Under the pieces are notes generated by a model. The model was not told where the DNA came from. It was given only the letters and a program-made list of their open reading frames with translations, and ran no database searches. From the NCBI RefSeq assembly GCF_026151205.1, contig NC_087072.1, positions 15,600,169 through 15,664,168 on the forward strand: DNA of 64,000 bases. Reading direction: 5' to 3'. Position 1 is the stretch's first letter. Each line of letters begins with the position of its first letter. The DNA comes from Bolinopsis microptera (Eukaryota; Ctenophora; Tentaculata; Lobata; Bolinopsidae). Of this stretch, positions 26,327 through 56,300 are shown one piece after another. A program made the position numbers and the translations under genes.

Positions 26327-29300
26327 ATGACTTTGTTATCGCAGCAACTCCAGAAGTTAGCACTTCCTAAAGAGCAGGTAAAAGGAGGAGCAATCCAGCA
26401 CTCCTCCCTCATCTTCTCCACCAGAGTTGCCTCGGACTACGATGTCCAGGATATCTATGATATTGGATCAACGGTTTCGAAGAGCTAGTCGCGCTGAACC
26501 CTTGCTTTGCCCGATTCAAAGATACCCTATTTCACCAGACTGCTGGAAAGTTTGAGCGGCTCTTGAAGAGTGCTGAATTTCTAGAAGGGGTTGATAGTGA
26601 GATTGAGCTTTTCCTTGCCCATGCTTCGAATTACGGTCTTCTGTCACCTGCTCACAAAGCTCTGGAGTGGCTTGTCAGAGCTTATAAGATCCACATTTAC
26701 AATTCTGACGCCCTACTCTCTGCTTTCATCCCACTTCATGATTCTAAAGTTTTCGCTAAAATCTTAGAGATCACAACTCTGCCCGATACGTGGATTTGGC
26801 TAGAGACCGCCAAGACGAACAACGTAAGTGTTGGAAGAGCAGAACTGGTGAAACTCTGTACATCCAACCCCCACTACCTCTCCTGCTTCATGGAGCGAGC
26901 AATGAAGATCATCAACCTGACCGAAAACACGGCTAGAATTCACCACTCTTTCCTCGTGACCCTGGTCTTCTTGGTCCTGGAACAGTTCGAGGAAGTTCCT
27001 CCTGATGTTTTTCCGAAGATCTATTCCTGTATGATAACAGCCATCTCCAGTTCAAACAAGGACCTCAAATCAGCTGGGTACATTATTACTGGGCAGGTTA
27101 TGAGGAAGATCACGTTGAAGGATCAGATAGTACGTGAGCTGATCTCTACTGTTGCTGCTCATCCCAACCCATCGCTGGTTAAAGAGTTGATCCTCTGTAT
27201 CTCGTGTATTTTGCACTTCCATCCAGTGTCAGATCTACCAGTTGGACTTGTCGAGCTGTTGTTGCAGGATCAGTTTGTCTTGGCATTGGGCTTGATTTAC
27301 GAGAAAAATGATATCAGCGGATTCATCAAAGAGTTACTCGTGACTGGAGTCGATCTTTGCTTCAAGTCTGGCATTTTGTTTTCCGAGAAATTTTCACGAA
27401 TGTTCCAACTGCCCGACCTTCCAGAGAGTATCGTGACTAGTGTTGTAGATCGTTACTTCGAGCTGTACTTCGCCGCCTCTCAAGAAACAAGAAATTCTGA
27501 AAGTGTGAATCAGCTTGGGGACATGCTATCTTCATCATTCTCCTCCCAAGTTCAGGACACATTCCAGAAATTCCACTCTCAAGGATCCGACATGGTGGTA
27601 CTAGGACAACTTAAAACCCTCATTCTTGGCAAGTATCTCGGAAATGAGTCTTCACAGAAAATTTTAGAAATCAACCACGAGCTACCTGGCATCCGTATGT
27701 TAGGATTACTGAAGATATCAGAGAAGCTGGATTCTGGACGGGAGCTGTCCAGTGAGGAAGAAAAGGATATTACCGGTACGATCATCTCGAGGATTACCGA
27801 CGAGGATGACTCTGTTTCGATAAAATCCCTGGAAATGATCAAGAAGTTTATAAAGACCTCAGAAGTGTTGGATTCTGTCACTTCTGCCGTTCTAAAGAAG
27901 ATGCAATCAATGGTGACAGACAGAAACCTGAACAAGGACACCGTGGTATCCCTCATAGCCTCTCTGATCGGGTTCCCTGAATCCCAACAGATCCTTCACA
28001 CCCTGCTCCTAGCTGTAGTGAACTTTATTCCGGTGTGTGATCAGCATCACTCTAAACAGATAGCTGTGCAGCTCAGGTAAGCACTTCTTTTCTGCTGTCA
28101 TGTTTACCACTTCTAAAGTTCTAACTGTCTTCGGGTCTCTTTGTTATAACTTTTCTTATTTTATCCAACTTCTAGCGTGTCTTTTAATCGGCTTATTCTT
28201 CTGCTTTAACCTGCTTATAAAGCAATGAAAGGCATTAGTTTGGTCAAATCAAACGGAACATATGCTATCAGACTTTCAACTGACTAAGGCAGGGTTAAAA
28301 CAGTTTTAACGCTAGCAATGATCCCCTTTTACATAGTTCCACTAAAATGATAATTTAAGATTAAATATGTATACTGTATAGTGATAGGTAAATAAAGTAA
28401 AAATGTAATAAAACAGTAGGGATAAAGTATACTAAGTAAACGTAGTCGACACGTCATAAAACGAACTGACCCAAATTAAACTGATAGATCTCCCGCGTAA
28501 TTTCCCGCGTAATTCTAAAACTCCGATTTGCGCCGCTGCAAAGTTATTATAAAACTAAATTCAACACGTGCGACAAATATGTCCTGTTTTAGGTCCAGCG
28601 AGTCTCTGAAGCGACTCAGCGCCTATCTTCCAACTGACACCAACCTGGACGTGCTGGTTACCCACATCCGTGATTACCCTCAGAGAGCAGCTCTAGTGGA
28701 GACGATGTGTAACAACCCCACCCCACAACACTTCAGGGTCATCTGTTCTCTAGTTGACGCTGTGGAGGGTGGTGAAGTTAGTACCCTCGCTCAGTACCTT
28801 CTCTCTGTCTTGAACACGGCTGTCGATAGAAAGGTATGCTGGGCGGCTGTTGAGGAGGTGATTTGTGTTTTGTTTTTAAGGTTGTTAATTGGTTATGGTG
28901 GTTTAATGAAATATTAGATGGTTATAAGTTGAATCCTAATTAAACGTCTTACAGTTTGAGTACAAAGAGATGCTTGTCCAAGATGCTGATTTCGAGAATA
29001 CTGTTGCTAAAGCCCCAAAGTTCTTCAAAAATTTCGCCATCATGAAACGCGTAAGTTTGTCCAATTCTAAATTTAAATTTTTGATAAATTTCACTCCTTC
29101 AAACTTACACCTAGTAAGTGACTAATAACCGAGAACAATTATTTCTTAAGTTGAGGGGGGGGGGGGGGGGGGGGGGGGTCCAACCCGATGTCCGATATGA
29201 GGGTTGATGAGGCCAAAATCGGAATCGGAAAAATCGGAAAAATCGGAAAATTGAGAAATTAACAGAATCGATCTCTAACACCTCTCAGAAGTGATATAAT

Positions 29301-32300
29301 TCAACCAGAACCCCTACATATGCTATATTGTTATGAGAAAACGAACCAATTGGACATTCCAATAGTATGTTTTATGTGTTTTTCCACTGCAGGGGCGCTA
29401 GTATGCTCACTACTAGTTGGAGTTGTCATGTACTCCCAGACCCGAGTGCTTTGGCCTTTTGACGTGAGATCGATTGTTTCTGCTCATTAATTTTATCCCT
29501 GTTACTTGTTATTATGTATTAGTACAACACTAGGTACCGGGTTATATTTTGTGGTCCGGTCTTTAAACATACCATAATATCACTAATACACTGCACCTTA
29601 AATGTATAGTCAAGTACATTTGTGGACACGTTCATTTGAGTTTGAGGATATTGGTAAACAAAAATAATAGCGTTTTTGACGATAGTGGCTTAATTTTGAC
29701 ATCTATTAACCTAGCACGTTCAGAAGTTCTGAACATTAGCCACGTAGCCCATCCTCCCATATGCACCGCTCAGAAAGAAAATCTATTGTTGTTAGGCACT
29801 ATAATGTTTCAAATGTCACATTTTGTGTGACTTAGTTAACTGCAGTTGTCTAATTATCATTCTTTGGTCTGAAATATAGTAAATTAGGTCAATCTAAAAA
29901 TTATGATACAACATTGGTTAATGGGCACGGATCGAACGGTTACAAGGCAATATTTGGGTAACTTTGTCACACTCATGATACCATACCTCTATTCTACTGT
30001 GAGGTGTCCTAAAAACCCTTTCAACTCATTATTTGATGGTTGCTCTACCAATCATAGCCCTAAAATATGTTGTTTTGAATATATAGCTAATACAGGCACT
30101 CGGTTATTGGGAAATGAGGTTAATTCTGTCACAATATATGGAATTTAAAATTTTGGGCGAATTATTTATATCTGATTTTGGTTTGAAAGGCGGGAAAATT
30201 TTATATGATGACAATGTAGTTGATGCAAGTTAAGATCAGTTGATGTTAACATTGTCACAAAAAATTATACGAAATCGTAAATAGATTAAAAACAATGATG
30301 ATAGAATGAAATAGTCTCTTATAATAACTCTTATAATAACCCTTATAATAACTGATGTGACAAAGTAAACATGTCTTGCCCCTATTTTGAAGATCTATAT
30401 TCTATACCTCTATTAGAATATTGTCCAGAACATCAGAGCTTAAGTTTAACAATTTTAGGTTAAATTTGTCAAAGTCACTAAAAATGTGACAAAATTAACT
30501 TTTCATGCCCCAACAATTTCAAGATAGTGTGTAAAAATTAGCAGGCTGCTTTATTACTTATATAAATCAATCCAAACTACAAAAAAATATATGTTAATGT
30601 GATGTCGATTACCTAACTCTTATAATAACTGATGTGACAAAGTAAACATGTCTTGCCCCTATTTTGAAGATCTATAACTCTATTAGAATTCGACATTCTT
30701 TCATAAACGATTGGAAGAATATTGTCCAGAACATAAGAACTCAATTTTAAAAATTTAGATTAATTTGTCAAAGACATTGAAAATGTGACAAAATTAACTT
30801 TCCCTGCCCCAACAGTATCAAGATACCCAAGATAGTGTGTTAAAATTGGCATAGGATTTATTACAGGTATATTAAAGTATTAATCGATCCAAACTACGAA
30901 AAATATCTTTTAATCTGATGACGATTACCTAACTCTTATAATAACTGATGTGACAAAGTAAACATGTCTTGCCCCTATTTTGGCGAACTATACCTCTATT
31001 AGAATACTATGTAACTTTATCATCAAACAAATTTCGATAAAGTAGTTATTTTGCCAGCAAGGAGCTAACAGAGTTATAATAATTTTTGGTGACGAAATTA
31101 CCCTATTTTTGACCATGTAGCGGTAGTTTAATTGTGACACTGTTAACATATTACCACCTGATAATGATTTGTGTGACTGGTGCATGGTACTAGCAGTGTT
31201 GTTTGATCCATAGTACGTATAATATAAGGGGTTTAAGCTGGTATATCATTATTTGTTCAATTTCACACATGTTCAGATATCATCAAGATTATGTGACAAA
31301 GTAAGCTTGGTTGTGCCTTCTGTGTTTTAATTCCTTACGACTATATAATATAATAACAATTCCCAGCACTTCCAGGCCATCAAATAAACTGACACTACTC
31401 AGCATTGCTTATCAGGGTGCCCTAAACATTCATCACATATTTTCTTTAATGTGTGACAGAGTAAACCTGAATGCACCATCTAACGAAAAAAGTCGTCAAA
31501 TATGTAGGTAATGGTCATATGTACCCATCCAATCAACTGGACACTCAAAAATTTGGTCAAAAACGGCAGCAAGGGGTCCATATTTACTCCGTCACATGTT
31601 TATAGTGTGACAATGTAACCATTTCCGTGCCGGCCGTATTTAAGCGATATCTTATCACCTGATTAAGATATCGTTATGTGACAAAGTTAGCCTGGAGGAT
31701 GAGACGATTATCCTAACCATCAAGGGTTTAAGTAATTTCATAGTGTGACAAAGTCAACTACACTGTGCCTTTTAATAGGGTCACTTATATTTACCAATTT
31801 CCTCAAACTCAAATGAACGTGTCCTTGTATCATAACACATGCTTGGCTGGGGGATCATGTTTTGTGTCCGTTCGGTACCCTATATTTTCAAAACGGACAA
31901 AAAGTAGAGCGAACAAAAACGGACAAAAACAGACAAAAACAGACAAAACATTTACATGTCCTCCTCCTCCTCCCTGGTCTTCCTCCTCCTTCTCATCAGT
32001 CCTCCTCCTCCTCCTAAGTCTTCCTCCTCCTCCTGAGTCCTTCTCCTCCTCAGTTCTCTTCAGTCCTCTTCCTGACTCCTCGTCCTCGTCCTTCTCCTCA
32101 GTCCTCCTCACCCTGCTCCTCAGTCCCCTCCTCCTCCTCAGTCCTACTCCCAGTCCTCCTCCTTCTCCTTCTCCTCCTCCTCCTCATTTCTCCTACTCAT
32201 CCTCCTCCTCCTTCTCCTCCCCATCAGTCCTCCTGAGTCCTCCTCATAGTCGTCCTCCTCCTCCTGAGTCCTCCTCATCCTCCTCCACCTCCTGAGTTCT

Positions 32301-35300
32301 CCTTCTGAGTCCTCCTCCTCATCCTCCTCCTCAGTCATCCTCCTCTTCCTCCTCAGTCCTCCCCAGTCCTCCTCCTCCTCATCCTCCTCCTTCTCCTCCT
32401 CATCAGTCCTCATCCTCTGTCCTCCTCATAATCGTCCTAGTCCTCATCCTCATCCTTAGTCCTCCTTATCCTCCTCCTCAGTCCTCCCCCAGTCCTCCTC
32501 CTCATTCTCCTCCTTCTCCTCCTAGCCTCATCCTCCTCCTCCTTCTCCGCTTTCTTCTTCTCCTAATCAGTCCTCCTCCTCCTCGTCCTTAGTCCTCGTC
32601 CTCGTCCTCCTCAGTCTTCCTCCTCAGTCCTCCTCCTCATCATACTCCTCCTCCTCAACAGTCCTCCTCCTCCTCCTCAGTCTCCTCCTCCTCATCGTCC
32701 TCCTCAGTCATCCTCATCCTTCTCCTCATCAGTCCTCATCCTCAGTCCTACACTAGTCGTCCTCGTCCTCTTTCTCCTCCTGAGTCCTCCTCCTCCTCAT
32801 CAGTCCTCCTCCTCCTCTTCAGTCCTCCTCCTGAGTCCTCCTGAGTCCTCCTCCACCTTCTGAGTCCTCCTCCTGAGTCATCCTCATCCTCCTCAATCTT
32901 CTCCTTATCCTCCTCCTCCTCCTCCTCCTCATTCTCCTCCTTATCCTCCTCCTTCTCCTCCTCCTTTTCCTCTTCCTTCTCCTCCTAATCAGTCCTCTTC
33001 TTTAGCCCTCATTATCATCCTCCTAGTCCTCGTCCTTAGTCCTCGTCCTCATCCTCCTCAGTCTTCCTCCTCAGTCCTGCTCCTCCTTCTCCTCCTTCTC
33101 AGTCCTCTTCCTCCTCAGCCTCCTCCTGATCCTCCTCTTTAGTCCTCTTCCTCCTCCTCAGTCCTACTCCTCAATCCTCCTCCTCCTCCTCCTCCTCCTC
33201 CTCCTCCTCCTCCTCCTCCTCCTCATCCTCATCCTCCTCATCCTCCTCCTCCTCAGTCCTCCTCCTCCTCCTCGTGAGTCTCATCCTCCTCATCCTTCTC
33301 CTTAGTCCTCCTCCTCTTCCTCAGTCCTACTCCTCAGTCCTCCTCCTCTCCCTCATCCTCTTCAGTCCTCTTCCTCAGCTCTCATCTTCTTCCTCCTCAG
33401 TCCTCCTCCTCTTCAGTCCCCAGTCCTCCTCCTACTCGTCAGTCCTCCTCCTCCTCCTCCTCGTCCTCATCCTCCTCGTCCTCATCCTCAGTCCTTCTCC
33501 TCCTCCTCAGTCCTCCTCCACCTCCTCAGTCCTCCTTCTCCTTCTCCTTCTTCTCCTCCTACTCCTAAGTCCTCCTCCCCTCCTCAGTCCTCCTCCTCCT
33601 TCTCCTCCTTTTTTTCCTTCTCCTCCTTCTCCTCGTACCCCTAAGTCCTCCTCCTCAGTCCTCCCCCAGTCCACCTCCTCATCAGTCCTCTGCCAGTCCT
33701 CCTTCCCCTCCTTCTCATCCTCAGTCCTCCTCCTCATCATCCTGCTCAGTCCTCCCTCAGTCCTCCTCCTCCTCAGTCCTCCCTAAGTCCTCCTCTTCCT
33801 CAGTCCTCCCCCAGTCCTCCTTCTCCTCTTCATCATCAGTCCTCCTCCTCAGTCCTCGTCCTCGTCCTTCTCCTTCTTATTAGTCCTCCTCCTCAGTCTT
33901 CCTCCTCGTCCTCGCTCTCGTCCTCCTCCTCAGTCCTCCTCGTCCTTAGTCCTCCTCTTCCTCACCAATGAGCTGCTCCTCTTCGTCAGTCCTCCCTCTC
34001 CTCTTCAGTCCTCCTCCTCCTCAGTCCTCCTCCTCCTCAGTCCTCCTCGGTCCTTCTCCTCCTCCTCAGTCCTCCCCAGTCCTCCTCTTTCTCCTCAGTC
34101 TTCCTCCTTCTCCTCCTCCTCCTCCTCAGTTCTCCTCCTCACCCTCCTCCTCCTTCTCCTCTTCCTTCTCCTCCTAATCAGTCCTCCTCCTCAGTCGTCC
34201 TCGTCCTTAGTCATCGTCCTCATCGTCCTTAGTCCTCGTCCTCATCCTCCCAGTCCTTGTCCTTAGTCCTCGTCCTCATCTTCTTAGTCCTCGTCCTGGT
34301 CCTCCTCTGTCCTCCTCAGTCCTCCTTCTCCTCAGTCCTCAGTCCTCCTCCTCAGTCCTCTTCCTCCTCCTCAGTCCTCCCCCAGTCCTCCTTCTCCTCT
34401 TCGTCATCCTCAGTCCTCCTCCTTCTTATCAGTCCTCCTCCTCAGTCCTCGTCCTCGCTCTCGTACTCGTCTTCAGTCCTCGTCGTCCTTAGCCCTCGCG
34501 TTCTCTTAGTCCTCCTCCTCCCCGTCCTCAGTCCTCCTCTTGAAATGGGTAGCACGGTCAATGGTCATTAACCGTGCTACCCATTTCTGCAGATAGCCTG
34601 TTACAAATTGTGGAGACAATTTAAATCAAAAGTTACTAAAGCGTTCTCTATTTGTTACGATTGTTATTACCAACCGTACCTCTTTCAATTGTGGACCGGG
34701 GTGGATGTTTCTGTCAAACAAGAGTTGATACCACAGTGTGTTGTTTTTCGGACGAAACGATTCTTGTTTGGAACTAGAAACCATTTTGGGGTTCTGGGAC
34801 CACAACAAATCGATTTCTTGTCATATTTAAGTACAGAAATAGCTACATATATCGCCTAGAAACCTCAGAGGAAAGATTTAAATTTTCCCGATTTTTCCGA
34901 TATGAGGGTTGATGAGGCCAAAATCGGGATCGGAATGATCGGAATGATCGGGTTGGACCCCCCCCCCCCCCCCCCCAAAGGGAGTAGAGTTTGTGGGAGG
35001 ATTAACAGAAGTTTTCAGTCAAGAGAAGTACAAGTTTCTAAGGACTCTTCGGTTGGAAACCATGGAAACAAAGTTTTGTAACCACTGGAACATTAAACAA
35101 TTAATAGGGACAAAACACCAAAGCCCTGTTTGGATTAACGACTCGGTGTGAAGAATACTGTGACATAAAGCTATCAGAGCCGTAATTCTGTTTTCGAACT
35201 GGGGAGGGTGGGGGGGGGGGTACGGTTTGCCAAATGGAGCGGCGCGGAAGCAGGTGTCTGAAGCCCGAGAAAAATTGTTGACTTTTTGAGTTAAAATTAT

Positions 35301-38300
35301 GAATTGAGATATCATCTTGCACTTACGTATAGAAGCACTTTTAGATAGTAAATACTTTTAAATAGTTGATCATAGATATAGATATCCTTTGCCCAGTGAT
35401 CTGTGCAGTTTTATTTTCGATGAGCTTCTACTTAATTATAGTTTATTATTTGTAGCGAACTACAAAGAAAATTAAAATTTTTGGCAAAAAATTTGGGGGG
35501 TGGGGTGATCAACCACCCAATCCCCCCGGGGGTCTTCCGCGAAAATTCTTCTTAAAATAGTACCATGTAAGTTCATACGTATTCTCTCTCTCTCTCTGTT
35601 TTGGTCAACGGTTTCTGGCCTCCTAGTGAAGAGGGAGGCCTTCTCGCCGTGCCCACAGAGTGTGACTTCTGCTAGCCACACTCCAGGATACGTTCATACG
35701 TATTAATAGTAGCTTACGAACTATCACTAAGTACGTCCACGAAACTATTACTTCGTAACTTTGAGAAAGTAATCAGAGAAAGTGTCTTCCGCTAACCGGA
35801 GTTTACGAACTTAGTGTCCCATAATTGATACAATTAGCGGACCATCACAGAGCTCCTTGTTTGGAAGTATCAAGTGTGCAGACAATCTAATTTGCATTGA
35901 GATCAGTACAGGGATTACTACGTTTTAGTTATGCCTTTGTTAAGGTTCGTGTGTTATTCTCTGTATTGCATAGGTTATGGACACGTTCATTTGAGTTTGA
36001 GGATATTGGTAAATATAAGTGACCCTATTAAAAGGCACAGTGTAGTTGACTTTGTCACACTATGAAATTACTTAAACCCTTGATGGTTAGGATAATCGTC
36101 TCATCCTCCAGGCTAACTTTGTCACATAACGATATCTTAATCAGGTGATAAGATAATATCGCTTAAATACGGCCGGCACGGAAATGGTTACATTGTCACA
36201 CTATAAACATGTGACGGAGTAAATATGGACCCCTTGCTGCCGTTTTTGACCAAATTTTTGAGTGTCCAGTTGATTGGATGGGTACATATGACCATTACCT
36301 ACATATTTGACGACTTTTTTCGTTAGATGGTGCATTCAGGTTTACTCTGTCATGTACATTAAAGAAAATATGTGATGAATGTTTAGGGCACCCTGATAAG
36401 CAATGCTGAGTAGTGTAAGTTTATTTGATGGCCTGGAAGTGCTGGGAATTGTTATTATATCATATAGTCGTAAGGAATTAAAACACAGAAGGCACAACCA
36501 AGCTTACTTTGTCACATAATCTTGATGATATCTGAACATGTGTGAAATTGAACAAATAATGATATACCAGCTTAAACCCCTTATATTATACGTACTATGG
36601 ATCAAACAACACTGCTAGTACCATGCACCAGTCACATAAATCATTATCAGGTGGTAATATGTTAACAGTGTCACAATTAAACTACCGCAACATGGTCAAA
36701 AATAGGGTAATTTCGTCACAAAAAATTATTATAACTCTGTTACCTCCTTGCTGGCAAAATAACTAGTTTATCGAAATTTTCTTGATGATAAAGTTACATA
36801 GTATTCTAATAGAGGTATAGTTCTTCAAAATAGGGGCAAGACATGTTTACTTTGTCACATCAGTTATTATAAGAGTTAGGTAATCGTCACCAGCTGAAAA
36901 GATATTTTTCGTAGTTTGGATCGATAATACTTTAATATACCTGTAATAAATCCTATGCCAATTTTAACACACTATCTTGATACTGTTGGGGCAGGGAAAG
37001 TTAATTTTGTCACATTTTCAATGTCTTTGACAAATAAATCTAAATTTTTAAAATTGAGTTCTTATGTTCTGGACAATATTCTTCCAATCGTTTCTGAAAG
37101 AATGTTGAATTCTAATAGAGTTATAGATCTTCAAAATAGGGGCAAGACATGTTTACTTTGTCACATCAGTTATTATAAGAGTTATTATAAGAGTTATTAG
37201 AAGAGTTATTATAAGAGTTATTATAAGAGTTATTATAAGAGTTATTATAAGAGTTATTATGAGAGTTATTATAAGAGTTATTATAAGAGTTATTATAAGA
37301 GTTATTATAAGAGTTATTATAAGAGTTATTATAAGAGTTATTATAAGAGTTATTATAAGAGTTATTATAAGAGTTATTATAAGAGTTATCATAAGAGTTA
37401 TTATAAGAGTTATTATAAGAGTTATTGTAAGAGTTATTATAAGAGACTATTTCATTCTATAATCATTGTTTTTAATCTATTTACGATTTCGTATAATTTT
37501 TTGTGACAATGTTAACATCAACTGATCTTAACTTGCATCAACTACATTGTCATCATATAAAACTTTCCCGCCTTTCAAACCAAAATCAGATATAAATAAT
37601 TCGCCCAAAATTTTAAATTCCATATATTGTGACAGAATTAACCTCATTTCCCAATAACCGAGTGCCTGTATTAGCTAACTATTCAAAACAACATATTTTA
37701 GGGCTATGATTGGTAGAGCAACCATCAAATAATGAGTTGAAAGGGTTTTTAGGACACCTCACAGTAGAATAGAGGTATGGTATCATGAGTGTGACAAAGT
37801 TACCCAAATATTGCCTTTTAACCGTTCGATCCGTGCCCATTAACCAATGTTGTATCATAATTGTTAGATTGACCTAATTTACTATATTTCAGACCAAGGA
37901 ATGATAATTAGACAACTGCAGTTAACTAAGTCACACAAAATGTGACATTTGAAACATTATAGTGCCTAACAACAATAGATTTTCTTTCTGAGCGGTGCAT
38001 ATGGGAGTATGGGTTACGTGGCTAATGTTCAGAACTTCTGAACGTGCTAGGTTAAGGGGGCAAACACCAAATCTGTCCAGACCAAATGACCTCATAGGCA
38101 GTTCAGTGACCTTCTAGCGCACCGTTTCCACACCAAAAAAATCATTTTGAGAATACACATTTTTGTAATCGATCATTTCCTGGTTAAGAGTGCAATTTTC
38201 GGAAAAAATAATTTTTTTGGTTGAGACGCTATAATTTAGCTAATTATTGAGATAGCGAGCTAAAATTTTTCAAAAAATATGTTTTTGTACTGTTCTACAT

Positions 38301-41300
38301 GGGTGTAAAATTTCATTACCGTATCTCAAAAGGCTGATGTGTTATAACCATTTAAAGTCAAAAAAGCTGAAATCGTCCTTTCAGGCTCATTTTGATCATA
38401 AGTCAGTCAGGGAACAAGGTCGTTTTTTATGCTTGACATGAAATTGTTCTCTGAACTCTGGCGCAGTTTTTGATGACCTCAAAAATGTGTTTACTCATTT
38501 GTAGTCAGATCTATTGGACCTCAAAGTTACAAGAAAAAAGTTATGATATTTTTATTTTTGTCAAAAAAATGATTCTGAAACCACAGAAACAAAGCTTGGA
38601 CTCCAATTTTAGGTAAAAATGGTCCGCTTCAATGTGCTCTAAGACCCTGTATTGGTTAGGAAATCATTCTGGCGAACAAAAATCGTGCATTTTTTCCCCT
38701 GGGTGATTGTAAGATATTTGGTGTGTTTGCCTCAAACGTCCAAAGTTACTCGATTTGGGGCTAATATATTATGCTGGAGTTGTTAACAGATAAGACATGC
38801 TTTTAAATTTCTGGACATCAATTTGTAGTCGACATCGAGAGAGAAACTAAGCTTTGTGCTTTGATTATAAATTATTAAAAATATCAGAACTATAATTGAA
38901 ATTAAAACTGTACATCATTTTACAATTACAGCTAATTGCTTGAAGTCATATAATGGCTACGTTTATTTAAGCAAATTTTTATGGACGCTTGACGAACCCC
39001 CAGAGCTAAAAACATTTTGGTCACTTCCTCGTCAGTCATACTGAGATACTTTTCACATGACAATTGTTCTGTCATTTTTAATGCGACAGTATCAGTAATG
39101 AGACCCGCTTTTAGCATGGGATTTGTACAACGCTGAATAACGCTCTCTAAAGAGCGGCAGCTAGAGCTCATAATTTCTAAAGTCACTTTCAAAGTGCTCA
39201 TTATCTTTGCCAAAGCCTTGCAATCATGAAGAGCATCATGGAGCTGGCTGATTTCTTCTACCGAACCCCCACAGGCCACAAAGTTTTTCTCCAAGGTACC
39301 GTTCAGTTTCAGCATTCTTAGTATGTCAACTGTGAACAACTTCCGCCGCACTATGATGAAAAGTTCTGGGTCGAGTTTGTTTCTCCAATGACTTAGGAGA
39401 CAATGGTCATCAAAGCTCGAGTTGTTGTAACCAACACAAATGACTTGTGCTGGCTCCAGCTCCTCCCCACCCTGGAGGTTCAATACCCATCTTGCAAATT
39501 TGTCAAAGACAAGACGTGCTGGTGAGGCTGACAATTGTTCCATCACTCCGTTAGACTGCTTGCAGAGGTTGCCCCCGACCTCAAAAAGTCCATTCACTTT
39601 TGAAGTATCGGCCGAAACCGGACCAGTAGGCAATATGTACTCTGAGAACTGCTCCATGATCGTGCCAGTGGCCCATATCCAAAAAATTTTTAATTTCCTA
39701 CATTCTCAATTTTTTCGTTTTCTGTGGCCCACTCGCTTCGCTCGCATAAAAAGTCTTTGTATTCGCGCGGTTCAAAGATTTTTCATGGCGGATTCCAGAT
39801 TCTCAATTTTACTTTTTTAGGGCCCGGAATGCTTTTTAATAGATAATCCTAGGTTACTTTTGGGGGCGAAGCCACCGAAAATTTTGGAAATTTAAACTAG
39901 ATTTGGCCTCCTGGAACGAATCTGACAAAGGAGAACGATTTTAGCATACTATTTTCTGATTTCAATTTTTATTGGGATAAATTGTCTGGATTCTAGAATC
40001 CCTAAACACTTGGCTTAACTAAAGCACGAAATAGGAGACAGCATGAAGTATCAAGAGTCTATAATTTTGGCAAAAATGTTTTCTCATCTACTACCATCAC
40101 TTTCTGCTTTCAAGCTATAAACTAATACAGGGTTAAGTGAATTTGGTAACACGACATCTGTCCGACAGCGACATCTGTCCGACAGCAATATTTTCGTGTG
40201 TTTGAAGTGATTATATCTCAAATTTGGCACATAGAAATTTATCCAAACTTGTACAAATTATTTGTCTTAAAGCTATCTTACTATCTAGAAAGTTTCAAGA
40301 AAATCGTATCGTTGGATCTCCAGATATATGCTTTGGAACCACTGAAAACCACCGAATTTGATATATTTTTTGTGTTTAAGGTAATATCTTAAACTTGGCA
40401 CATAGAAACTCGCTCAAACTTACACAGATTATTCGTCCTATAACCACCGTACTTTATGGAAAGTTTTAAGAAAATCGTACGGTAGGATCCGACATAAACT
40501 ATTGTCCAAATAACCTATTTTCTGAGTCGGACAGATGTCGCTGTCGGACAGATGTCGCCCAATCTGCGTTTCCTATCTTATTTAAATAGTAAATACTAAT
40601 AGTCATTATTATATTTTTGGAAAATTTAAATTCCTTGTTTCTTGAATATTTGGTCTCATACTTGCTTCCTTCTCCAAATTCACTGATTGGGCGACATCTG
40701 TCCGACAGCGACATCTGTCCGACTCAGAAAATACAAAGAATGCTTCTGCATTATGCATGTTTAGACGTATTACATCAACTCATAATACTAAATACTATAT
40801 AATGTTCTTTGAACTCCTGACATAAAGTTATTACAATTGCATTGATGACCGTTCACAACATTACATGATTGATAATGCTATTATCAAAACTGGAATGGTA
40901 GTCTATATTGGTTAGTGGTTACTTGATGCACAGATTTTGTAGCTAATAGCAACAAACTTTGGTCTGTGAAACGAAATTTGATAGACTGGATCAGTGGATC
41001 CCTGACTGAGGACATTTAAATAACGGTCCAGCAACTTTTAGTCTGCTCTTTCACTTAAATTCCTACTGAAATATTATCGAAAATTCTCAGAGTTGGCTCT
41101 CGAATTTCCTACTTTTTGTCAAAAATTTCCTACTTTTAAAAATTTCCTACATTCTTAGAATGCGAGAATGCGGGTTTTTGGATATGGGGCCAGTGGAGGG
41201 ATCAAAGCGTACAGCAGCAATCTGAGAAATGTTGTCCATCAAAATGAGTTTATTGAACAATGTGTAAAAATGTGCTGTGTATTCTAAACTAACATACTTT

Positions 41301-44300: not shown

Positions 44301-47300
44301 GTCGAGAGAATGTTCAACGAACATCACAAGAAATGTCGATGCCCTATCGAGAGAGCGATAGGGACGCTCAAGTCCCGATGCACGTGGAGGCAACCTGGTG
44401 GTACCAGATTGTTAATCTTAATTTTTTCTATTCTATTGTAGAATCATTACCTTTAATGTTAAAACATACGTTCACGTTATAATCTAAACTTGTTTAGAAT
44501 AGAATTGTATTGATTGACAACGTCAGCCTGGGAATAATGAGTATTTTTTTCTGACTTAAGAACTAATATTTGTTCGTAAGTAGGTACACCCCAACCCTTA
44601 CTTTCGAACTAATCCCATTTCTATCATGTTACGCACGAACTTAAGAAGTTCGTAAACGGTTAAGTATAAAAAACTCATTAGAAGTGTCACATTACTAATT
44701 ATTTGTGGACTTAGGGGGAAAAATTTGGTAGTAACTTTAGGAAGTCAAATGATCATAACTGTGTATCGTGGATACAGATATGCAATATCAATACAATATC
44801 TTGGTATGTTAGTTCGTAAGTTGGACAAAGATCGTTTCGCGGACGACCCCCCGGGAATTACAGCCCTGAAAGCTATTGTCCTCAGCACTGTCCTTAATAT
44901 TGTATAGGATTGTTATTTTTACACATTCGATAAATGTAAATGCCTAACATAGTGTGTTTCCCTTCTTCTCCAAATCTAATAAAATGTAAAGGATACTTTA
45001 ATCGACTGTCGTGGATTCTTCTAACCTCTTCTAACATTGGAGCTCGCGTTACCGGCTCCATAACACATATATCATGATTGTTAACTTGGAATTTACTATC
45101 CTCTGTGAAGATCTGTACATACTACCCAGCTATAATTACAACTTGTGGTGCAATATATCGTTCTTTTAATATTTTAACCCCTAATATTTTGCCCAAATTT
45201 GTGCTATGTTCAGATCTTTGAGTTTGTCATATGTGTAGCTGTGATTTTGGTTATCTGCAGCGAGCAGTACATTGTTGCCATTATCCCATGTACCAACATA
45301 TTATTTTTCCCAAGTTTAATCAAAACTTCCATCGCTAACTTGTAAAGACCTCTACCCAGCCATGAAGAACAAAAAGAATTGTACTTGCTTCGGACTCCTC
45401 ATCGTCTTCCTTTCAGTGAACATCCTCGTAGCAGTATTGTTTTACCCTCTCGATGGCATTACCCAGATTAGTATTGTAGCTGTTCAGGCAAACAGTAACC
45501 AGAGCGGGACATTTCCTCACAATAATCAGAGCGGGACATTACTTCGCAATAATCAGAGCGGGACATTTCCTCACAATAATCAGAACGGGACATTACTTCA
45601 AAATAATCAGAGCGAGACATTTCCTCACAATATTCAGAGCGGGACATTACTTCACAATCAAAGCAGTTGGCTTCCTCAATCTGATGTAACTGAAGGTACA
45701 GCAAATTCAGAACAACCATCACGTACTTTATTCCGTGTACAGTTTGTAACAGAGGGAAGGTGTCTCGGAATATCGGGCACGAAGAAACCTGTTGTTAAAT
45801 TTTGTAACCCACTTGAGAGAGATACTTTTGTTTTCATGGATGGTAAGATAAGATCGGAGGAACTTAACTTATGTTTAAGTGAGGATCGTTCTGATAACAA
45901 ATTATTGTTGTTTCTGGATTGCGAAGTGGCGGCTAGATTCGAACTTGTCGATGAGATTCTTGCCAAGATACCGGACAATGAATCTGAGGAGGAATCTTAT
46001 TTTTCAGCTTTGAATGACACAGAAGATTCTGGATGTCCTTCAACAAACAGTCCTGAAATAGGTGGCAAAGTTGGGTTAACAACCTGCAGGATAGAGGCTT
46101 CAAAAGTAGGGCTACTGGAGGAAACATCATTCCTCAAAGATAGAGCAGCTCTTCTTCTACCACTCCCGCCTGATGACACGTGTAATTTCCCTGCTTGTGG
46201 TATGAACAAACGGGCACCTCCTGTAAAAGCCTTGTTTGCTAATCAGATAGAGAGATGTGGTGACTTGTCAGAGTGTGTTACCGTGGTTACTAAGACTGCT
46301 AGGAGACCACTATTCGTTATCAGACTTGCTAAGAGTCTGCGGAAACAGTTTAAACTTGACCTTCCTATGATAGTTATTGACGACGGTCCTGAAGGTTATA
46401 GCTCTGAGATAATGGATGAGATCGCCAAATTCCCTAATATGCAATACGTCATGTCCTCTCCAGATCTAGGCATTGCCGAGGGGAGGAATATAGGGCTACG
46501 AATGGTGAAGACTAAATATTTCTTCCTATTAGATGATGATATGGTCGCTACAGATAGAACAGAAGTTTCTAAATTGGTGGAGATATTAGACACCACCGAC
46601 GCCACTCTCGTTGGGGGAGGGTTTATGTTTCCAGGTTTCTTAGAGTTTGGTATGGATCCTTATGGGAAAAAAACTTTATTTCACTATGAAAACACATGTA
46701 CTGACCAACCTGTAACAGGGTTTCCTGATTGTTATAGATGTGAAATTACCGCCAATAGGTTCGTGGCAAGAACACAAGATGCTATAGCGGTGGGAGGTTG
46801 GAGCAAAGAACTTAAAATAGTTGAGCACAAAGATTTCTTCCTGCGGTTGAAGGGGGCGGGAAAGAAGGTAGTGTTCTGTCCGGGATTTATCGTAGTAGAC
46901 GATCACAGCCGGACTCAGGGAGTGGAGCTTGTTGGAGGATTAACAGAAGTGTTCAATCGAGAGAAGTACAAGTTGCTCAGGACTCTTCGGTTTGAAACCA
47001 TGGAAATGAAGTTTTGTAACCACTGGAACATTGAACAAGTAATAGGGACAGATCACAAGTACCCTGCCTGGATTGATGACATTGACTAGGTAACCAGGTA
47101 ACCAGGTTACTATGGTAATAGGGACAGATCACCATGCCAGTACCCTGCCTGGATCGATGACATTGACTAGGGGTAAAGCATATTTAGGTAAGAATACTGT
47201 GATATTAAGCTATGCTCAAAATGTATTTCATCTTCAACGTAACGTCTACCTTTTAATTGAGTGGATTGGAAGCTCTACTGGTCAGAAAGACTTACTGTAA

Positions 47301-50300
47301 GTGATATATCAGGTCTTGATTCTTAGTTTAATTTGTATAACTAATGTTTGTATGTTTGTATAACTGATGTGCTCAAAACCACTTGTTTTTATTTTAGCCT
47401 CACATATGTGCACACTGCACGCCTTATTTAAATATTATTGTCCTAAATATTGTGTACATTTTGTTAATGTAAAGGATACTTTAATCGAATGTTTTGGATT
47501 TTGTAAAATTCTTCTAAACTCCAAAAGATGCCAACATATAACTAAAGTAATCCACGAAAAGCTCTACTCACTTGAAGATCTTTTTCGCGTATTTGCCTCC
47601 GCAGTTGAGAACAATAACCTTGGTGAGCGAATCTTTGATAAGTTGAAGCTGCTTCTCGAAGACAGGCAGATGATTTGACAGGTCCATCCGCACATCAAAG
47701 TGCTGAACATCCTTGATGCTGAAGTTATCGTCTTGGGACGCTAAATATTGCAGATACACGATACTGTTTATTCCGTAATCGTCTGCTGAGGCCAGGATGG
47801 AGAACTCGTACCATTTATACTCCTTCAACAAGTCGAATATAGCCTGACTCTGGTGAGCATCAGATGGGGACAGCCGGATCTCAAAATCATCTGATCTGTG
47901 AAAGTCAGTGAAAGGATTAGTGGCAACTGCAGCTATGAGAGGGAGAAGGAACTGATTGGCGAGGTTAGCCTGGATATCTGTTAAAGTAGAGTCACAGGCT
48001 GATATTACAGCTACCACCTCCTGCTCCAGTAGAGCACAGAAGCAGGTCTGGAGACTGAGGTAGGTGGAGTCGTGGTACTGTTCCACTAGCTCCACAGTAG
48101 TCTCACTGCTCTCTAGTCTGGAGATGGTGTACTCAGCTAGTCTCCTGATGGCATCCGCCCCCTCCTCATCTTCAGAATCAAGGATGAGTCCTATCTTGTA
48201 GCCATGACAACACGCGAAAACAAGGACGAAGAGATGCGGTAACATTGTAGCCTGAAGATATGAAATGATTTCACAAAAGGTGATTATGGATTTGGTTTAG
48301 TCACCACTATGCGTGTTAAGATACTTGACGCTTTATAGTTTAATTGAGAAGTTGGGAGAATGCACTGTTTATTAAACAATAGACTCAATTTAAATACTTT
48401 CAACTCTACTATGTAACAAATAATTTGTTAAACAATAGACTCAATTTAAAAAATTGATTATTGACCAAAAGACTTAACTTAAATATTGGACAAAAGACAA
48501 ATTCGAGATAGATGAATCAAGCGGCCAGTTTCCGCTGTTAATAATAATACTACCATTGCACTACAATGCTGGCGACTGGCATCACCTCATACTGAGTTTA
48601 AAATGAAAATCCTTAACCAGCAGCGTTTATTCCATCTGGAGCATTATTTCGCGTGACGACGTTCGTTAACCACCTAATCGTAGCCACTAGGTCGGTCTCC
48701 AATAAAGCAACTTTAATTTCACTCTCGAGAAATAGGAACAATTACAGAAAACGATTTAACCATTAATCCATGCCTTGAGAAAAAATTTTGATAAGCAGTT
48801 AGAATTGCTCTTGTGTAGGCAACAAAGTTACCAGGTTAATATTTGTTCTACCCATGCGGGTCACGAACTAGGAGATCTTAGATCACCTTGAGAATCTTGA
48901 TAAAATTAGCGCTCATTTAGTGATTTGCGGTCGCCTCAGGTGCAACCTTTATAATTACACTTGGTATGTTCGGAATAGAACGAGAATTATATTATAATTA
49001 CGCCGTGGAGTCTGGACCCGTTCTAATTACTTCTGTCAGATGAGAACTAGACGTTTTGATGTTAATCTAAGAAAGGAAACGTTAGGTACCGTCTAGACGG
49101 GCTCTAAGTTAGGTACCGTCTAGCCGGGCTCTAAGAGGTGACGTAATTAACGGCGGCGTGCAGCACTGGTAGTGGTTATACTGGACAATAAATCCAGCCA
49201 AGGATACGTTATAGCTTCGTACTTTATACAGTCTTTATTTAAAGTAAGTTATAGTTTGACAGATTTCCACCGGCCAGATGTGTAGGGACTACGGGTGGAA
49301 GATGAATAATTGATATTCCAACAGCATCTTGTTCCCTTCATTGTGCTGATTCCGGGAAGCATTCTGTTTACGCTCTCATCATTCTGTAGGATGAGATATC
49401 GTTCATTTAAAATTGGGTAATTATAGGCCCCCATTTCACATCTCAGATGTGAAATGGGGGCTCAATAATTTGTAGTAATGATATATGAGCTATAACAGTT
49501 CCCGAAGTAACGAGTTAAATAAACGTCTAATAATTAAAGAACATACGTTACCCATTTTCTAAAAGTGGGGGGGGGGGGGGGGTCCAACCCGATGTCCGAT
49601 ATGAGGGTTGATGAGGCCAAAATCGGAATCGGAAAATCGGAAAAATCGGAAAATTGAGAAATTAACAGAATCGATCTCTAAAACCTCTCAGAAGTGATAT
49701 AATTCAACCAGAACCCCTCCATATGCTATATTGTTATGAGAAAACGAACCAATTGGACATTCCAATAGTATGTTTTATGTGTTTTTCCACTGCAGGGGCG
49801 CTAGTATACTCACTACTAGTTGGAGTTGTCATGTACTCCCAGACCCGAGTGCTTTGGCCTTTTGACGTGAGATCGATTGTTTCTGCTCATTAATTTTATC
49901 CCTGTTACTTGTTATTATGTATTAGTACAACACTAGGTACCAGGTTATATTTTGTGGTCCGGTCTTTAAACATACCATAATATCACTAGTACACTGCACC
50001 TTAAATGTATAGTCAAGTACATTTGTATCGTAACACATGCTCAGGGTTGCCGGGGGACCTTAAAAACCTTAAAAAACCTTAAAAACCTTAAAAACGGCAA
50101 TTTTGGGCAAAAAACCTTAAAAAAGACGTGAAAAACGGGCAAATTTTCGGGTTTTTAAGGTTTTTTAAGGTTCCATACCTAAATTATACCTAGCTTGATG
50201 TAGATCTAAATGGATTTTCCGGATTAGTAAAATTTTCTGAATTATACCTAGCTTGATGTAGATATGATAAGATTTTCTGAAATTATACCTAGCTCGGTGT

Positions 50301-53300
50301 AGACCTGATAAGATTTTCTGAAATTATACCTAGCTCGGTGTAGATCTAATTGGGTTTTTCTGAAATTATACCTAGCTCGGTGTAGATCTAATTGGGTTTT
50401 TCTGAAATTATACCTAGCTTGTTGTAGATCTATTGGGTTTTTCTGAAATTATACCTAGCTTGTTGTAGATCTAATTGGGGTTTTCTGAAATTATACCTAG
50501 CTTGTTGTAGATCTAATTGGGTTTTTCTGAAATTATACCTAGCTTGTTGTAGATCTAATTGGGTTTTTCTGAAATTATACCTAGCTTGTTGTAGATCTAA
50601 TTGGGTTTTTCTGAAATTATACCTAGCTTGTTGTAGATCTATTGGGTTTTTCTGAAATTATACCTAGCTTGTTGTAGATCTAATTGGGCTTTTCTGAAAT
50701 TATACCTAGCTTGTTGTAGATCTAATTGGGTTTTTCTGAAATTATACCTAGCTTGTTGTAGATCTAATTGGGTTTTTCTGAAATTATACCTAGCTTGTTG
50801 TAGATCTAATTGGGTTTTTCTGAAATTATACCTAGCTTGTTGTAGATCTAATTGGGTTTTTCTGAAATTATACCTAGCTTGTTGTAGATCTATTGGGTTT
50901 TTCTGAAATTATACCTAGCTTGTTGTAGATCTAATTGGGCTTTTCTGAAATTATACCTAGCTTGTTGTAGATCTAATTGGGTTTTTCTGAAATTATACCT
51001 AGCTTGTTGTAGATCTAATTGGGTTTTTCTGAAATTATACCTAGCTTGTTGTAGATCTAATTGGGTTTTTCTGAAATTATACCTAGGTCGGTGTAGATCT
51101 AATTGGGGTTTTCTGAAATTATACCTTCCCCCTTTAGATATGTCATATGATTGCAATTTCTGTAGCGGAAACCTTAAAAAACCTTAAATTTAACTGTTTT
51201 GGACCTTAAAAATGGGTCAAAAGGGGCCTTAAAAGACGTGAAAAAACCTTAAAAATGACTCTCAAAAATGCCGGCAACCCTGCTGACATGCTTGGCTGGG
51301 GGTCATGTTTTGTGTCCGTTCGGTACCCTATATTTTCAAAACGGACAAAAAGTAGGGCGAACAAAAACGGACAAAAACAGACAAAAACAGAAAAACATTT
51401 ACATGTCCTCCTCCTCCTCCCTGGTCTTTCTCCTCCTTCTCATCAGTCCTCCTCCTCCTCCTAAGTCTTCCTCCTCCTCCTGAGTCCTTCTCCTCCTCAG
51501 TTCTCTTCAGTCCTCTTCCTGACTCCTCGTCCTCGTCCTCGTCCTTCTCCTCAGTCCTCCTCACCCTGCTCCTCAGTCCCCTCCTCCTCCTCAGTCCTAC
51601 TCCCAGTCCTCCTCCTTCTCCTTCTCCTCCTCCTCCTCCTCATTTCTCCTCCCCATCAGTCCTCCTGAGTCCTCCTCATAGTCGTCCTCCTCCTCCTGAG
51701 TCCTCCTCCTCATCCTCCTCCACCTCCTGAGTCCTCCTTCTGAGTCCTCTTCCTCATCCTCCTCCTCAGTCATCCTCCTCTTCCTCCTCAGTCCTCCTCC
51801 TCCTCATCCTCCTCCTTCTCCTCCTCATCAGTCCTCATCCTCTGTCCTCCTCATCAGTCCTCATCCTCTGTCCTCCTCATAATCGTCCTCGTCCTCATCC
51901 TCATCCTTAGTCCTCCTTATTCTCCTCCTCAGTCCTCCCCCAGTCCTCCTCCTCATTCTCCTCCTTCTCCTCCTAGCCTCATCCTCCTCCTCCTTCTCCG
52001 CTTTCTTCTTCTCCTAATCAGTCCTCCTCCTCCTCGTCCTTAGTCCTCGTCCTCGTCCTCCTCAGTCTTCCTCCTCAGTCCTCCTCCTCATCATCCTCCT
52101 CCTCCTCCTCAACAGTCATCCTCCTCCTCCTCAGTCTCCTCCTCCTCATCGTCCCCCTCAGTCCTCCTCCTCCTTCTCCTCATCAGTCCTCATCCTCAGT
52201 CCTACACTAGTCGTCCTCGTCCTTAGTCCTCGTCCTCATCCTCTTCCTCCTCCTGAGTCCTCCTCCTCCTCATCAGTCCTCCTCCTCCTCTTCAGTCCTC
52301 CTCCTGAGTCCTCCTGAGTCCTCCTCCACCTTCTGAGTCCTCCTCCTGAGTCATCCTCCTCCTCCTCAATCTTCTCCTTATCCTCCTCCTCCTCCTCCTC
52401 CTTATCCTCCTCCTTCTCCTCCTCCTTTTCCTCTTCCTTCACCTCCTAATCAGTCCTCTTCTTTAGCCCTCGTTATCATCCTCCTAGTCCTCGTCCTTAG
52501 TCCTCGTCCTCATCCTCCTCATTCTTCCTCCTCAGTCCTGCTCCTCCTTCTCCTCCTCCTCAGTCCTCTTCCTCCTCAGCCTCCTCCTGATCCTCCTCTT
52601 TAGTCCTCTTCCTCCTCCTCAGTCCTACTCCTCAGTCCTCCTCCTCATCCTCCTCCTCCTCCTCCTCCTCATCCTTATCCTCATCCTCCTCAGTCCTCCT
52701 CGTCAGTCCTTCTCCTCCTCGTCAGTCCTCCTCCTCCTCCTCTTCAGTCCTCCTTCTTCTTCTCCTCATTCTCCTCCTACTCATAAGTCCTCCTCCTCAG
52801 TCCTCCTCCTCCTTCTCCTCCTCCTATTTCTCCTCATTTTCCTCCTTCTCCTCCTACTCCTAAGTCCTCCTCCTCAGTCCTTCCCCAGTCCTCCTCCTCA
52901 TCAGTCCTCCCCTGGTCCTCCTTCTCCTCATCATCCTCAGTCCTCCTCCTCATCGTCCTACTCAGTCCTCCCCCAGTCATCCTCCTCCTCAGTCCTCCCC
53001 AAGTCCTCCTCTTCCTCAGTCCTCCCCTCCTCCTCCTCAGTCCTCCTTCTCCTTCTCCTTCTTCTCCTCCTACTCCTAAGTCCTCCTCCTCCTCATCAGT
53101 TCTCCTCCTCCTTCTCCTCCTTCTCATCATCAGTCCTCCTCCTCATCATCCTCCTCAGTCCTCCCTCAGTCCTCCTCCTCCTCAGTCCTCCCTAAGTCCT
53201 CCTCTTCCTCAGTCCTCCCCCAGTCCTCCTTCTCCTCTTCATCATCAGTCCTCCTCCTCAGTCCTCGTCCTCGTCCTTCTCCTTCTTATCAGTCCTCCTC

Positions 53301-56300
53301 CTCAGTCTTCCTCCTCGTCCTCGCTCTCGTCCTCCTCCTCAGTCCTCCTCGTCCTTAGTCCTGCTCCTCCTCACCAATGAGCTGCTCCTCTTCGTCAGTC
53401 CTCCCTCTCCTCTTCAGTCCTCCTCCTCCTCAGTCCTCCTCCTCCTCAGTCCTCCTCGGTCCTTCTCCTCCTCCTCAGTCCTCCCCAGTCCTCCTCTTTC
53501 TCCTCAGTCTTCCTCCTTCTCCTCCTCCTCCTCCTCAGTTCTCCTCCTCACCCTCCTCCTCCTTCTCCTCTTCCTTCTCCTCCTAATCAGTCCTCCTCCT
53601 CCTCGTCCTTAGTCATCGTCCTCATCCTCATCGTCCTTAATCCTCGTCCTCATCCTCCCAGTCCTTGTCCTTAGTCCTCGTCCTCATCCTCCTAGTCCTC
53701 GACTTGGTCCTCCTCAGTCCTCCTTCTCCTCAGTCCACAGTCCTCCTCCTCAGTCCTCTTCCTCCTCCTCAGTCCTCCCCCAGTCCTCCTTCTCCTCCTC
53801 GTCATCCTCAGTCCTCCTCCTCCTTCTTATCAGTCCTCCTCCTCAGTCCTCGTCCTCGCTCTCGTACTCGTCCTCAGTCCTCGTCGTCCTTAGCCCTCGC
53901 GTTCTCTTAGTCCTCCTCCTCCCCGTCCTCAGTCCTCCTCTTGAAATGGGTAGCACGGTCAATGGTCATTAACCGTGCTACCCATTTCTGCAGATAGCCT
54001 GTTACAAATTGTGGAGACAATTTAAATCAAAAGTTACTAAAGCGTTCTCTATTTGTTACGATTGTTATTACCAACCGTACCTCTTTCAATTGTGGACCGG
54101 GGTGGATGTTTCTGTCAAACAAGAGTTGATACGACAGTGTGTTTTTTTTTCGGACGAAACGATTCTTGTTTGGAACTAGAAACCATTTTGGGGTTCTGGG
54201 ACCACCACCAATCGATTTCTTGTCATATTTAAGTACAGAAATAGCTACCTATATCGCCTAGAAACCTCAGAGGAAAGATTTAAATTTTCCCGATTTTTCC
54301 GATATGAGGGTTGATGAGGCCAAAATCGGGATCGGAATGATCGGAATGATCGGGTTGGACCTTCCCCCCCCCCCCCCCCCCCTAGTTGAAAAAAAAAACA
54401 AATCAATAAATATTCAGGAGTGGGAGATGGTCGGACTGGTCCTCTCAGTTCTCACCAGACTGGCCCCTAAGATCACCTCTCCACAAGATATCAAGCATCT
54501 CCTCCTCTATCTAGTGAGATCCTGTACTTTACATCAACCCTGCAAACCGCTCATTGCTGCCATCGACAGGGGACTGGTCTACAGTGTGGCTATGAAGGTA
54601 AATTTAATAAACTTTGAGCATTTTAATGATATATTCATTGGTTTATCAGCAAACCTGTTGTCGTTTCAAATGAAGACTTTCTTTGTACATCCTAAAGCAT
54701 GATGAATTATGTTTAAACATCAACCCTCTTATATATAATATCTAGGTTGCGTTAGAAGAAGATCCCAGTTCGATCCTGGCCTCTGAAGGTCTAGACGGGA
54801 CGGAGTCGCTGGATAACCTGCTGGAATGTCTCAGACTTGTGAAGATTACGGAGGAGAACCTGAACTCTGTGTTCCCTCACTTGCTGTGTGCTCTAGTAGC
54901 TCCCTCTCAAAAGGTACTCAGGGTTACAGCTACCCTACTATTGTCTTGATAGTTCCAATTCGGTCGAGCAAGGTATATAATTGCAATTAACTTGGATTGC
55001 TCTTTTTATAGATTATTTACTGAATTTCTGTTTTTCAGGTTCGATCATGGGCCTACAAGCGGTTGAAGACCGTATCCAAGTTGGATCCATCCTCATCGAC
55101 GGGCGTCGATATTCTACAGAATCTTGAAATTACCAAAAATGTTGAATTTGAGATGCTAAAACAGGTTCGAAATAGACACACTCTCGGTTTTTCAAAATAG
55201 CGTTTTTTAAGTCGTTAAAAGCTCCACTTCCTGACTTCCTAGAACACCTGAATCCTGATACTGATTACTTGTAATCGTATTGGTATTTGAAGAACAATCC
55301 CAGCTGCCTCCCATTAACCGATATTAAATCATTAGTAGGGCCCCAACTCGACGAAGGACAACAAACATTAACTTTAATTTTCCTAATTTTTACAAAGTAG
55401 AATGTGGCTTATGACCATTGCAGTGCCGTATTGTGTATCAACTATTAAAGTATTAAACATTGGTGGGACTTTAAGAGAACAAGCATCCAACAAATGCTCT
55501 AGGGTGTGTCCACTGTTTACTAATACTATCCGCCAACCAATTTTGTTAAAGACCTGTTAAAAGATATTATGTTAAAGATAAATATACCAGAGAGATGCTT
55601 CCCCTGTTCCCCACAATAGAGACTCTTTTTTATGCGAGATTATAAATATTATGTGATGTCAAGATTTGGAACGTAATGATTAATTTTTCAGGAAATAGGA
55701 AAAGTATGCTTGAGCAACGACGCTAAGATATCATCTTGGTTAGAGGAAACATTGCCATACGGCGAAAAGTTGAACAGTCTTTATGGGATTTTTGGGGCAG
55801 TGCAGCATCCAGCTAAACTTAAATACAGCCTTCAGCTCATCAAGGTTTGCATCCCAGCAACAAATTACAAATCAATGTAATCATACACCATTTCTCACTC
55901 ATTAAACTAAGAAACAGCTTACAATTTGCTTGATCTGAAAGTCTGAAAGTGATAACCCCCTGACTAACAACTAAACCCCCAGGATGGAGCAACACGAGGT
56001 GGACTGCTAGGTGACTTGTCTCCCTCCTCCACCTCACTGCTCCTCAACCACTCTCCCCTGATGGAGCTCTTCTTCTCTGCCATGGAAACCAATCCTGGTC
56101 TTCTTGCAGAGGGTCTCAACTCTGAGTTCCTGGGAGAGTTCCCGGCTGTGTCACGTGATAGGGTGGTAAGAGTGTTGCTGGGAGAGTGCAACAAAGAGTG
56201 GGAGGAACATATCAAACTTACCATCAGACAGGTACTAGTTCGAGAAGCTTTTAGGAGGAGTAATTGGAGTTGTGATTATTTTATTTAAAACGATCTGAGT

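Follow-up and report, generated by a model that had tools for sequence, protein, structure and literature searches.

We analysed a 64,000-nucleotide stretch of the genome of the ctenophore Bolinopsis microptera (contig C1, positions 15600169-15664168; hereafter the window) that carries the gene HEATR1, one of whose introns holds a 25,228-bp insertion. The insertion consists of two copies of a transposon that begins with a run of G and ends with a run of C (the G-run family; copy 1 and copy 2) and of a segment between them, segment X, with coding sequence of other genes; it is probably a composite transposon. The genome searched comprises 264.65 Mb in 232 contigs. Matches fell on contigs C1 to C13 (15-26 Mb where lengths are given) and a few small contigs, and the available text of the assembly report places 97.23% of bases in 13 chromosome-scale scaffolds (PMC10232365). 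Across the intron the coding sequence joins in frame, from ..KNFAIMKR to EWEMVGLV.., and without the insertion an intron of 132 bp would be left, also in frame (104 bp on the left, including one AGTTGA, and 28 bp on the right), similar to the adjacent HEATR1 introns of 121 and 148 bp. The gene name is that given by the first-pass annotation, and exon 1 contains the U3snoRNP10 domain expected of HEATR1. The exon-1 protein has a single match genome-wide, so the gene is single-copy in the assembly and there is no second allele for comparison.

Both copies start GGGG..TCCAACCCGAT and end ATCGGGTTGGACC..CCCC, and they lie in the same orientation, as the first-pass annotation had described; they form direct repeats spaced by about 19.4-20.4 kb. 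With nested inserts left out they are 95.1% identical over 3,466 columns. Of the 169 differences, 103 are concentrated in a TCC-rich minisatellite, in two windows of 300 columns, and outside these the divergence is about 2%. Each also carries a nested element at a site that is empty in the other. Copy 1 looks non-autonomous because its frames of at least 100 amino acids are low-complexity, and the frames of 13 further loci are likewise mostly low-complexity, with some longer ones at L081 and L082. At each of its ends, copy 2 has closer relatives elsewhere in the genome than copy 1 (1 versus 10 differences on the left, 0 versus 5 on the right), while copy 1 is closer to other copies at its left end (4 versus 10) and tied at its right (5). 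With relatives elsewhere that are nearer or equally near, the two are therefore not local duplicates of one insertion. No report of this G-run element turned up in the literature searched, which does not prove that none exists.

Segment X matches the minus strand of C7:7147917-7134654 in pieces that are 94.6-100% identical over most of its host-like DNA: 97.7% (608 columns), 100% (287), 97.9% (529), 96.8% (187), 98.2% (385), 98.6% (2,392) and 94.6% (1,295). Between two of these pieces the C7 cluster, which also has a partial tandem duplication, holds a 6.35-kb inverted-repeat transposon of its own, and X is uninterrupted there. Because the apparent gap is only this transposon, which X lacks at the corresponding site, X is a collinear piece of a C7-like glycosyltransferase/receptor cluster rather than a patchwork. 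The first-pass annotation had assigned to these 14.6 kb an intact glycosyltransferase gene, part of a second one and a glutamate-receptor exon; an open glycosyltransferase, the 3' end of a second one and a receptor exon are indeed present, but about 8 kb (35979-43931) is a pile of nested transposons, and host-like DNA makes up only about 6.6 kb. At C7:7147917, C7:7138868 and C8:974156 the DNA of the second glycosyltransferase runs on without an element, although the two C7 places themselves match just the last 79-91 codons. Since the left edge of X cuts a coding stretch that is continuous on C7 (twice) and on C8, copy 1 was presumably once inserted in such sequence. The right edge of X lies 137 bp beyond the inverted-repeat end of another transposon family, and these last bases (49430-49566) have no match elsewhere beyond a 149-bp repeat and a local palindrome.

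Pairing the best 40 left-end and best 40 right-end matches of the G-run family by place and orientation gave 15 further copies, and two more simple copies taken from neighbouring clusters made 17 pairs. An eighteenth, C9:6538713/6535397, had been kept out of the original 17 because its flank is tandemly duplicated. A matching word stands at both ends in 17 of the 18 paired simple copies. The words are exact and 5-9 bp long, 15 of the 17 within 6-8 bp, often with A first and T last and with no single length (for example ATTGGCT, AACCTT, ATAGTT, AAAGATT, ACCTTATT and AAACGAT); the word at C10:6.9M is ambiguous where it runs into the C-run, and that at C9:6.08M has five or six bases, hinging on one G. 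In the window, the flanks of copy 1 alone share no bases and those of copy 2 alone share three. The inner flanks of X are mismatched (AAAAGT versus AAAGGGAG; no shared bases), and the outer pair shares six, the AGTTGA that the first-pass annotation had seen on the outermost flanks. AGTTGA beginning at offset 0-2 occurs at 0.17% of window positions, and the right outer flank paired with another copy shared five bases (TAGTT). Taken alone, the six-base outer match is moderate evidence; the main evidence is the strong pattern of two copies without a duplication of their own and one duplication outside both. Two independent insertions around a resident segment are out, since neither copy has its own duplication, versus 17 of 18 others.

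This outer-only duplication fits a single event that used the outer ends of two copies as those of one element. We put the probability at about 0.62 that the 25-kb block is a naturally formed composite transposon, or macrotransposon, and the first-pass proposal of a composite transposon moving genes fits best with the family duplication rule, the missing duplications of the single copies, the shared outer pair and the collinear order of X and C7. Two copies of one family with compatible outer ends surround passenger DNA, one duplication encloses the whole unit and none encloses either copy, and the passenger DNA is foreign to HEATR1 and traceable to the C7 cluster, although the exact donor haplotype was not found. 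In the proposed sequence of events, copies A and B (copy 1 and copy 2 of the window) would have inserted independently and in the same orientation on either side of the glycosyltransferase/receptor segment in a C7-like cluster. A transposase acting in trans would then have taken the outer left end of A and the outer right end of B as one element, and the unit A-X-B would have moved into the roughly 132-bp intron of single-copy HEATR1 on C1, duplicating AGTTGA at the target. The inner flanks of A and B would each retain one half of the older donor insertion sites. We infer the transposase, both original donor insertions and the one-step move.

Table 1. Features of the insertion in HEATR1 and of its passenger DNA (window positions).
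Feature	Position	Strand	Details
HEATR1 intron with insertion	29051..54417	+	25,367 bp; exon translations, splice sites
Target duplication AGTTGA, left copy	29149..29154	+	
Element copy 1, G-run to C-run	29155..34976	+	5,822 bp
Transposon nested in copy 1	29624..31824	+	2.2 kb; inverted ends (GGACACGTTCATTTGAG); TTGT duplication; empty site in copy 2
TCC-rich minisatellite within copy 1	31959..34456	+	
Carried segment X	34977..49566	+	14,590 bp
3' end of second glycosyltransferase, cut by element	34978..35142	+	left edge of X
Short interspersed repeat inserted in X	35584..35691	+	about 106 bp; absent from C7
Transposon nested in X, same family as 29624-31824	35979..43931	-	TTAT duplication; site empty in C7
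TTAA-flanked inverted-repeat element within 35979-43931	38056..43845	.	
Open glycosyltransferase family 2 reading frame	45362..47089	+	575 amino acids; PF00535, E 2.4e-16
Part of first exon, class C receptor-like gene	47571..48245	-	ANF_receptor PF01094, E 1.7e-22
Inverted-repeat end of another transposon family	49281..49429	+	truncated by copy 2
Element copy 2, G-run to C-run	49567..54382	+	4,816 bp
Inverted-repeat element nested in copy 2	50042..51284	.	1.2 kb; CAGGGTTGCCGG..CCGGCAACCCTG, 42-bp tandem repeats; site empty in copy 1
Target duplication AGTTGA, right copy	54384..54389	+	extra T at 54383 after C-run

The divergence of the ends offers a second line of evidence. If whole units moved, both ends of a copy should be alike in divergence, whereas after an exchange of halves the left end of copy 1 should resemble the right end of copy 2. 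The unit model was favoured against all eight reference copies with both ends known, with likelihood ratios of 2.3, 3.2, 3.6, 5.9, 28.7, 32.1, 32.3 and 611, the largest being inflated by the alignment of the ends; an earlier version with one reference gave 4.4. The end counts depend on the alignment (copy 1 against C6:11.47M differs at 6/450 or 9/450 positions), and there were too few informative sites to look for chimerism by linking left-end and right-end types. The divergence test leans towards macrotransposition without settling it.

Several points weigh against this interpretation. The likelihood ratios come from few differences and non-independent references and include changes after the event. 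The outer duplication is only six bases long and its right-hand copy is preceded by an extra T, and six bases are also common to 4 of 272 mismatched left/right control pairs drawn from the 17 simple copies. The pair C9:6538713/6535397, inside a tandem duplication, has no target duplication; a duplication can therefore be absent without a composite. Beyond position 48378, X (48379-49243) matches only C8, at 84-90%, and not C7, so the exact donor haplotype is missing from the assembly. A search for the segment elsewhere in the genome, as suggested by the first-pass annotation, did recover the collinear C7 relative, but the stretches read from C7 (30 kb), a second C7 place (20 kb) and C8 (20 kb) contained no G-run element and hence no element-flanked donor; they were not searched for excision scars, and the donor haplotype may be unassembled. 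Among the frames listed for the G-run family, for which no family search was made, no transposase was recognised. HEATR1 exon 1 (26327-26480) changes frame about 150 bp past the start codon, a probable 1-bp indel that is either an assembly error or a true lesion in a single-copy gene, and which points to base-level errors or a real lesion near the insertion. Finally, according to the available text of its report, the assembly was built with wtdbg v2.4, HiRise, TGS-Gapcloser, Purge Haplotigs and pilon, and repeat-driven misjoins are possible (PMC10232365).

An unlikely alternative starts from a simple copy flanked by AGTTGA that was resident in HEATR1 first; a break in it, which could arise during attempted excision, for instance, would have been repaired by copying A-X-B out of the C7-like cluster, or a circle released between A and B would have recombined into it. 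Either route leaves the same outer duplication and the same mismatched inner flanks, with the donor still in place. The best-matching family ends are 94-100% alike, enough for recombination, and ectopic recombination between transposon copies is described for Galileo of Drosophila in the part of that account available (PMC2775673). This route requires an extra insertion and a second event, however, and against all eight references the end divergence fits whole units better, usually by a modest factor. The first-pass annotation had itself raised a gene-bearing circle joining a resident copy. In its simplest form, a circle made from one simply inserted element, this is disfavoured, since it should leave matching inner flanks and the observed ones mismatch; a circle formed from a pair of donor copies, or gap repair that used the pair as template, should leave a structure indistinguishable from composite transposition.

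An assembly artefact, a concern already voiced in the first-pass annotation, appears improbable. Under this explanation HEATR1 would contain at most one simple copy, and X would derive from an unassembled C7 haplotype joined through the repeat. Assembly is difficult across homopolymer ends and 5-kb repeats, and X is close to C7 in sequence but not identical. However, there are no N bases in 29001-54500, X has a nested transposon of its own at a site empty in C7, and the misjoin requires two separate switches in different repeat copies. A donor A-X-B would still be required, and no trace of one was found in the stretches read. We regard as highly improbable a reversed-ends transposition with re-replication, as in maize Ac, in which inner-facing ends insert and re-replicated flanks join inside X. 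Such events likewise give outer transposon copies and one outer target duplication in the available part of the maize report (PMC4270019), but they predict an end-joining junction inside X, and X is collinear with C7 through the sole candidate break, the caveat being the unmatched bases at 49430-49566. Tandem duplication of a single HEATR1 insertion is out, as both copies have nearer or equal relatives elsewhere and X is not HEATR1 DNA.

The closeness of the two copies adds little to the case for macrotransposition. The G-run family has 119 left-end pattern matches genome-wide, and among 100 listed left ends there are seven same-orientation pairs within 20.4 kb (the window pair, three on C9 and three on C5) versus one opposite-orientation pair (C2); by our own arithmetic, chance alone would place about 0.5 same-orientation pairs this close among 119 left ends. 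Two of the clusters behind the seven pairs arose at least partly by segmental or tandem duplication. As the excess of close pairs thus comes partly from duplication, closeness alone is not evidence, and the target-duplication pattern is. In the C5 and C9 clusters, eight left ends were examined. C5:6661620 and C5:6813379 have common flanks from an inverted duplication, C9:6538696 and C9:6541009 have common flanks from a tandem duplication, and C9:6529118 and C5:6680258 are simple copies with duplications of their own. The stretches fetched around C5:6647344, C5:6661620, C5:6813379, C5:6819813 and C9:6541009 showed no right end belonging to these copies.

Two of these clusters merit a separate description. 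L078 (C5:6661420-6666420) and L082 (C5:6809200-6813560) hold one element in opposite orientations about 150 kb apart, both times with the same left flank. G-tracts in L078 are hundreds of bases long, and the pair is possibly an inverted duplication with assembly trouble. L083/L084 (C9:6535397-6541026) is a tandemly duplicated member whose outer right end lacks a target duplication, the sole exception of the 18.

The passenger coding sequences could be placed by domain and structure matches. The nearest solved protein to the open reading frame at 45362-47089 is beta-1,4 N-acetylgalactosaminyltransferase 1 (E 9.4e-14). A 1-bp gap at codon 397 shifts the frame of its C7 relative, and those on C8, C11 and C4 are shifted or interrupted, leaving X with the sole open full-length glycosyltransferase among six places compared (X; C7; a second C7 place, a fragment; C8; C11; C4). 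Some of the relatives' frame breaks could be due to single-base assembly errors. Compared with C7, the carried gene has a ratio of non-synonymous to synonymous substitution rates (dN/dS) of 0.66 (6 synonymous and 14 non-synonymous changes), in which no constraint is evident, the changes being few. The receptor exon has metabotropic glutamate receptor (mGluR) 7 as its best solved match (E 2.2e-09), in keeping with the glutamate-receptor exon first reported here. Because calcium-sensing and taste receptors match too, we label it class C receptor-like, and by these matches it appears most like mGluR. Later receptor exons were not found in X in a search by open frames only.

Other repeats and genes in and around the insertion were also noted. 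The nested transposons at 29624-31824 in copy 1 and 35979-43931 in X belong to one GGACACGTTCATTTGAG-ended inverted-repeat family and lie in opposite orientations; this family occurs at 97-98% in at least 39 other places, including the window's second copy, with 40 of 971 candidates scored. The element at 38056-43845 has GGGGGCA-type inverted ends and minus-strand frames that resemble 3'-5' exonucleases only very weakly (Pfam Rv2179c-like, E 0.051; ERI1 exoribonuclease 3, E 0.88). In the glycosyltransferase cluster on C7, the 6.35-kb transposon (C7:7139981-7146335; L038/L039) has long near-perfect inverted ends (TACTCTAGTAGCAGGGAATAG..). Downstream of HEATR1, two similar receptor-like genes (59080-60260 and 63220-64000, read by eye) stand in tandem on the minus strand.

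Bacterial composite transposons, in which two copies of an insertion sequence flank and move passenger genes, are the prokaryotic counterpart of such a structure. The available text on maize Ac/Ds describes macrotransposons formed by direct pairs, where two copies act through their outer ends and carry the DNA between them with one outside duplication; one of 28 kb left a modified 8-bp footprint when it excised (PMC9910405). The block in HEATR1 is alike in these respects, but it belongs to a different family, with G-run ends, 5-9 bp matching words and no recognised transposase, lies in an animal and is read from one genome, whereas the Ac/Ds events were observed in pedigrees. Alternative transposition, also using the ends of two separate copies in one reaction, is described for Drosophila P elements, Fusarium impala and Sleeping Beauty transgenes in mice; the cases in the part of the account available are inversions and rearrangements, in contrast to a carried gene segment with an outer duplication (PMC8225341). 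The Composite Insertions produced by reversed ends, as far as that source was available, share the outer transposon ends, the genomic DNA inside and the target duplication, but no internal joining site is seen in X, and the related source lies on another contig (PMC4270019). For Galileo in Drosophila buzzatii, exchanged duplications and chimeric copies separate recombination from transposition in a similar way, though the available account concerns inversions between opposite-orientation copies, unlike the direct copies here, which offer too few sites for chimerism (PMC2775673).

The block is a well-formed composite insertion of a kind already known from maize Ac/Ds, most likely produced by macrotransposition, and it looks like a natural animal case. 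In the literature consulted, each source available in part, macrotransposition was worked out in maize lines, and the animal mentions were of alternative transposition by P elements and transgenes. The case is of interest as a natural one from an early-branching animal in which target duplication, related source cluster and open passenger coding sequence can all be seen. It is quite doubtful, though conceivable, that pairs of elements of the unclassified G-run family naturally move multi-gene segments between ctenophore chromosomes and have here saved a glycosyltransferase that is decaying at home by placing it in an intron of a single-copy housekeeping gene, the only open copy among the six places compared, beyond which other open copies may exist. 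If the macrotransposition reading is true, it would show that non-autonomous elements are able to spread entire genes from one chromosome to another by a route other than retrotransposition.

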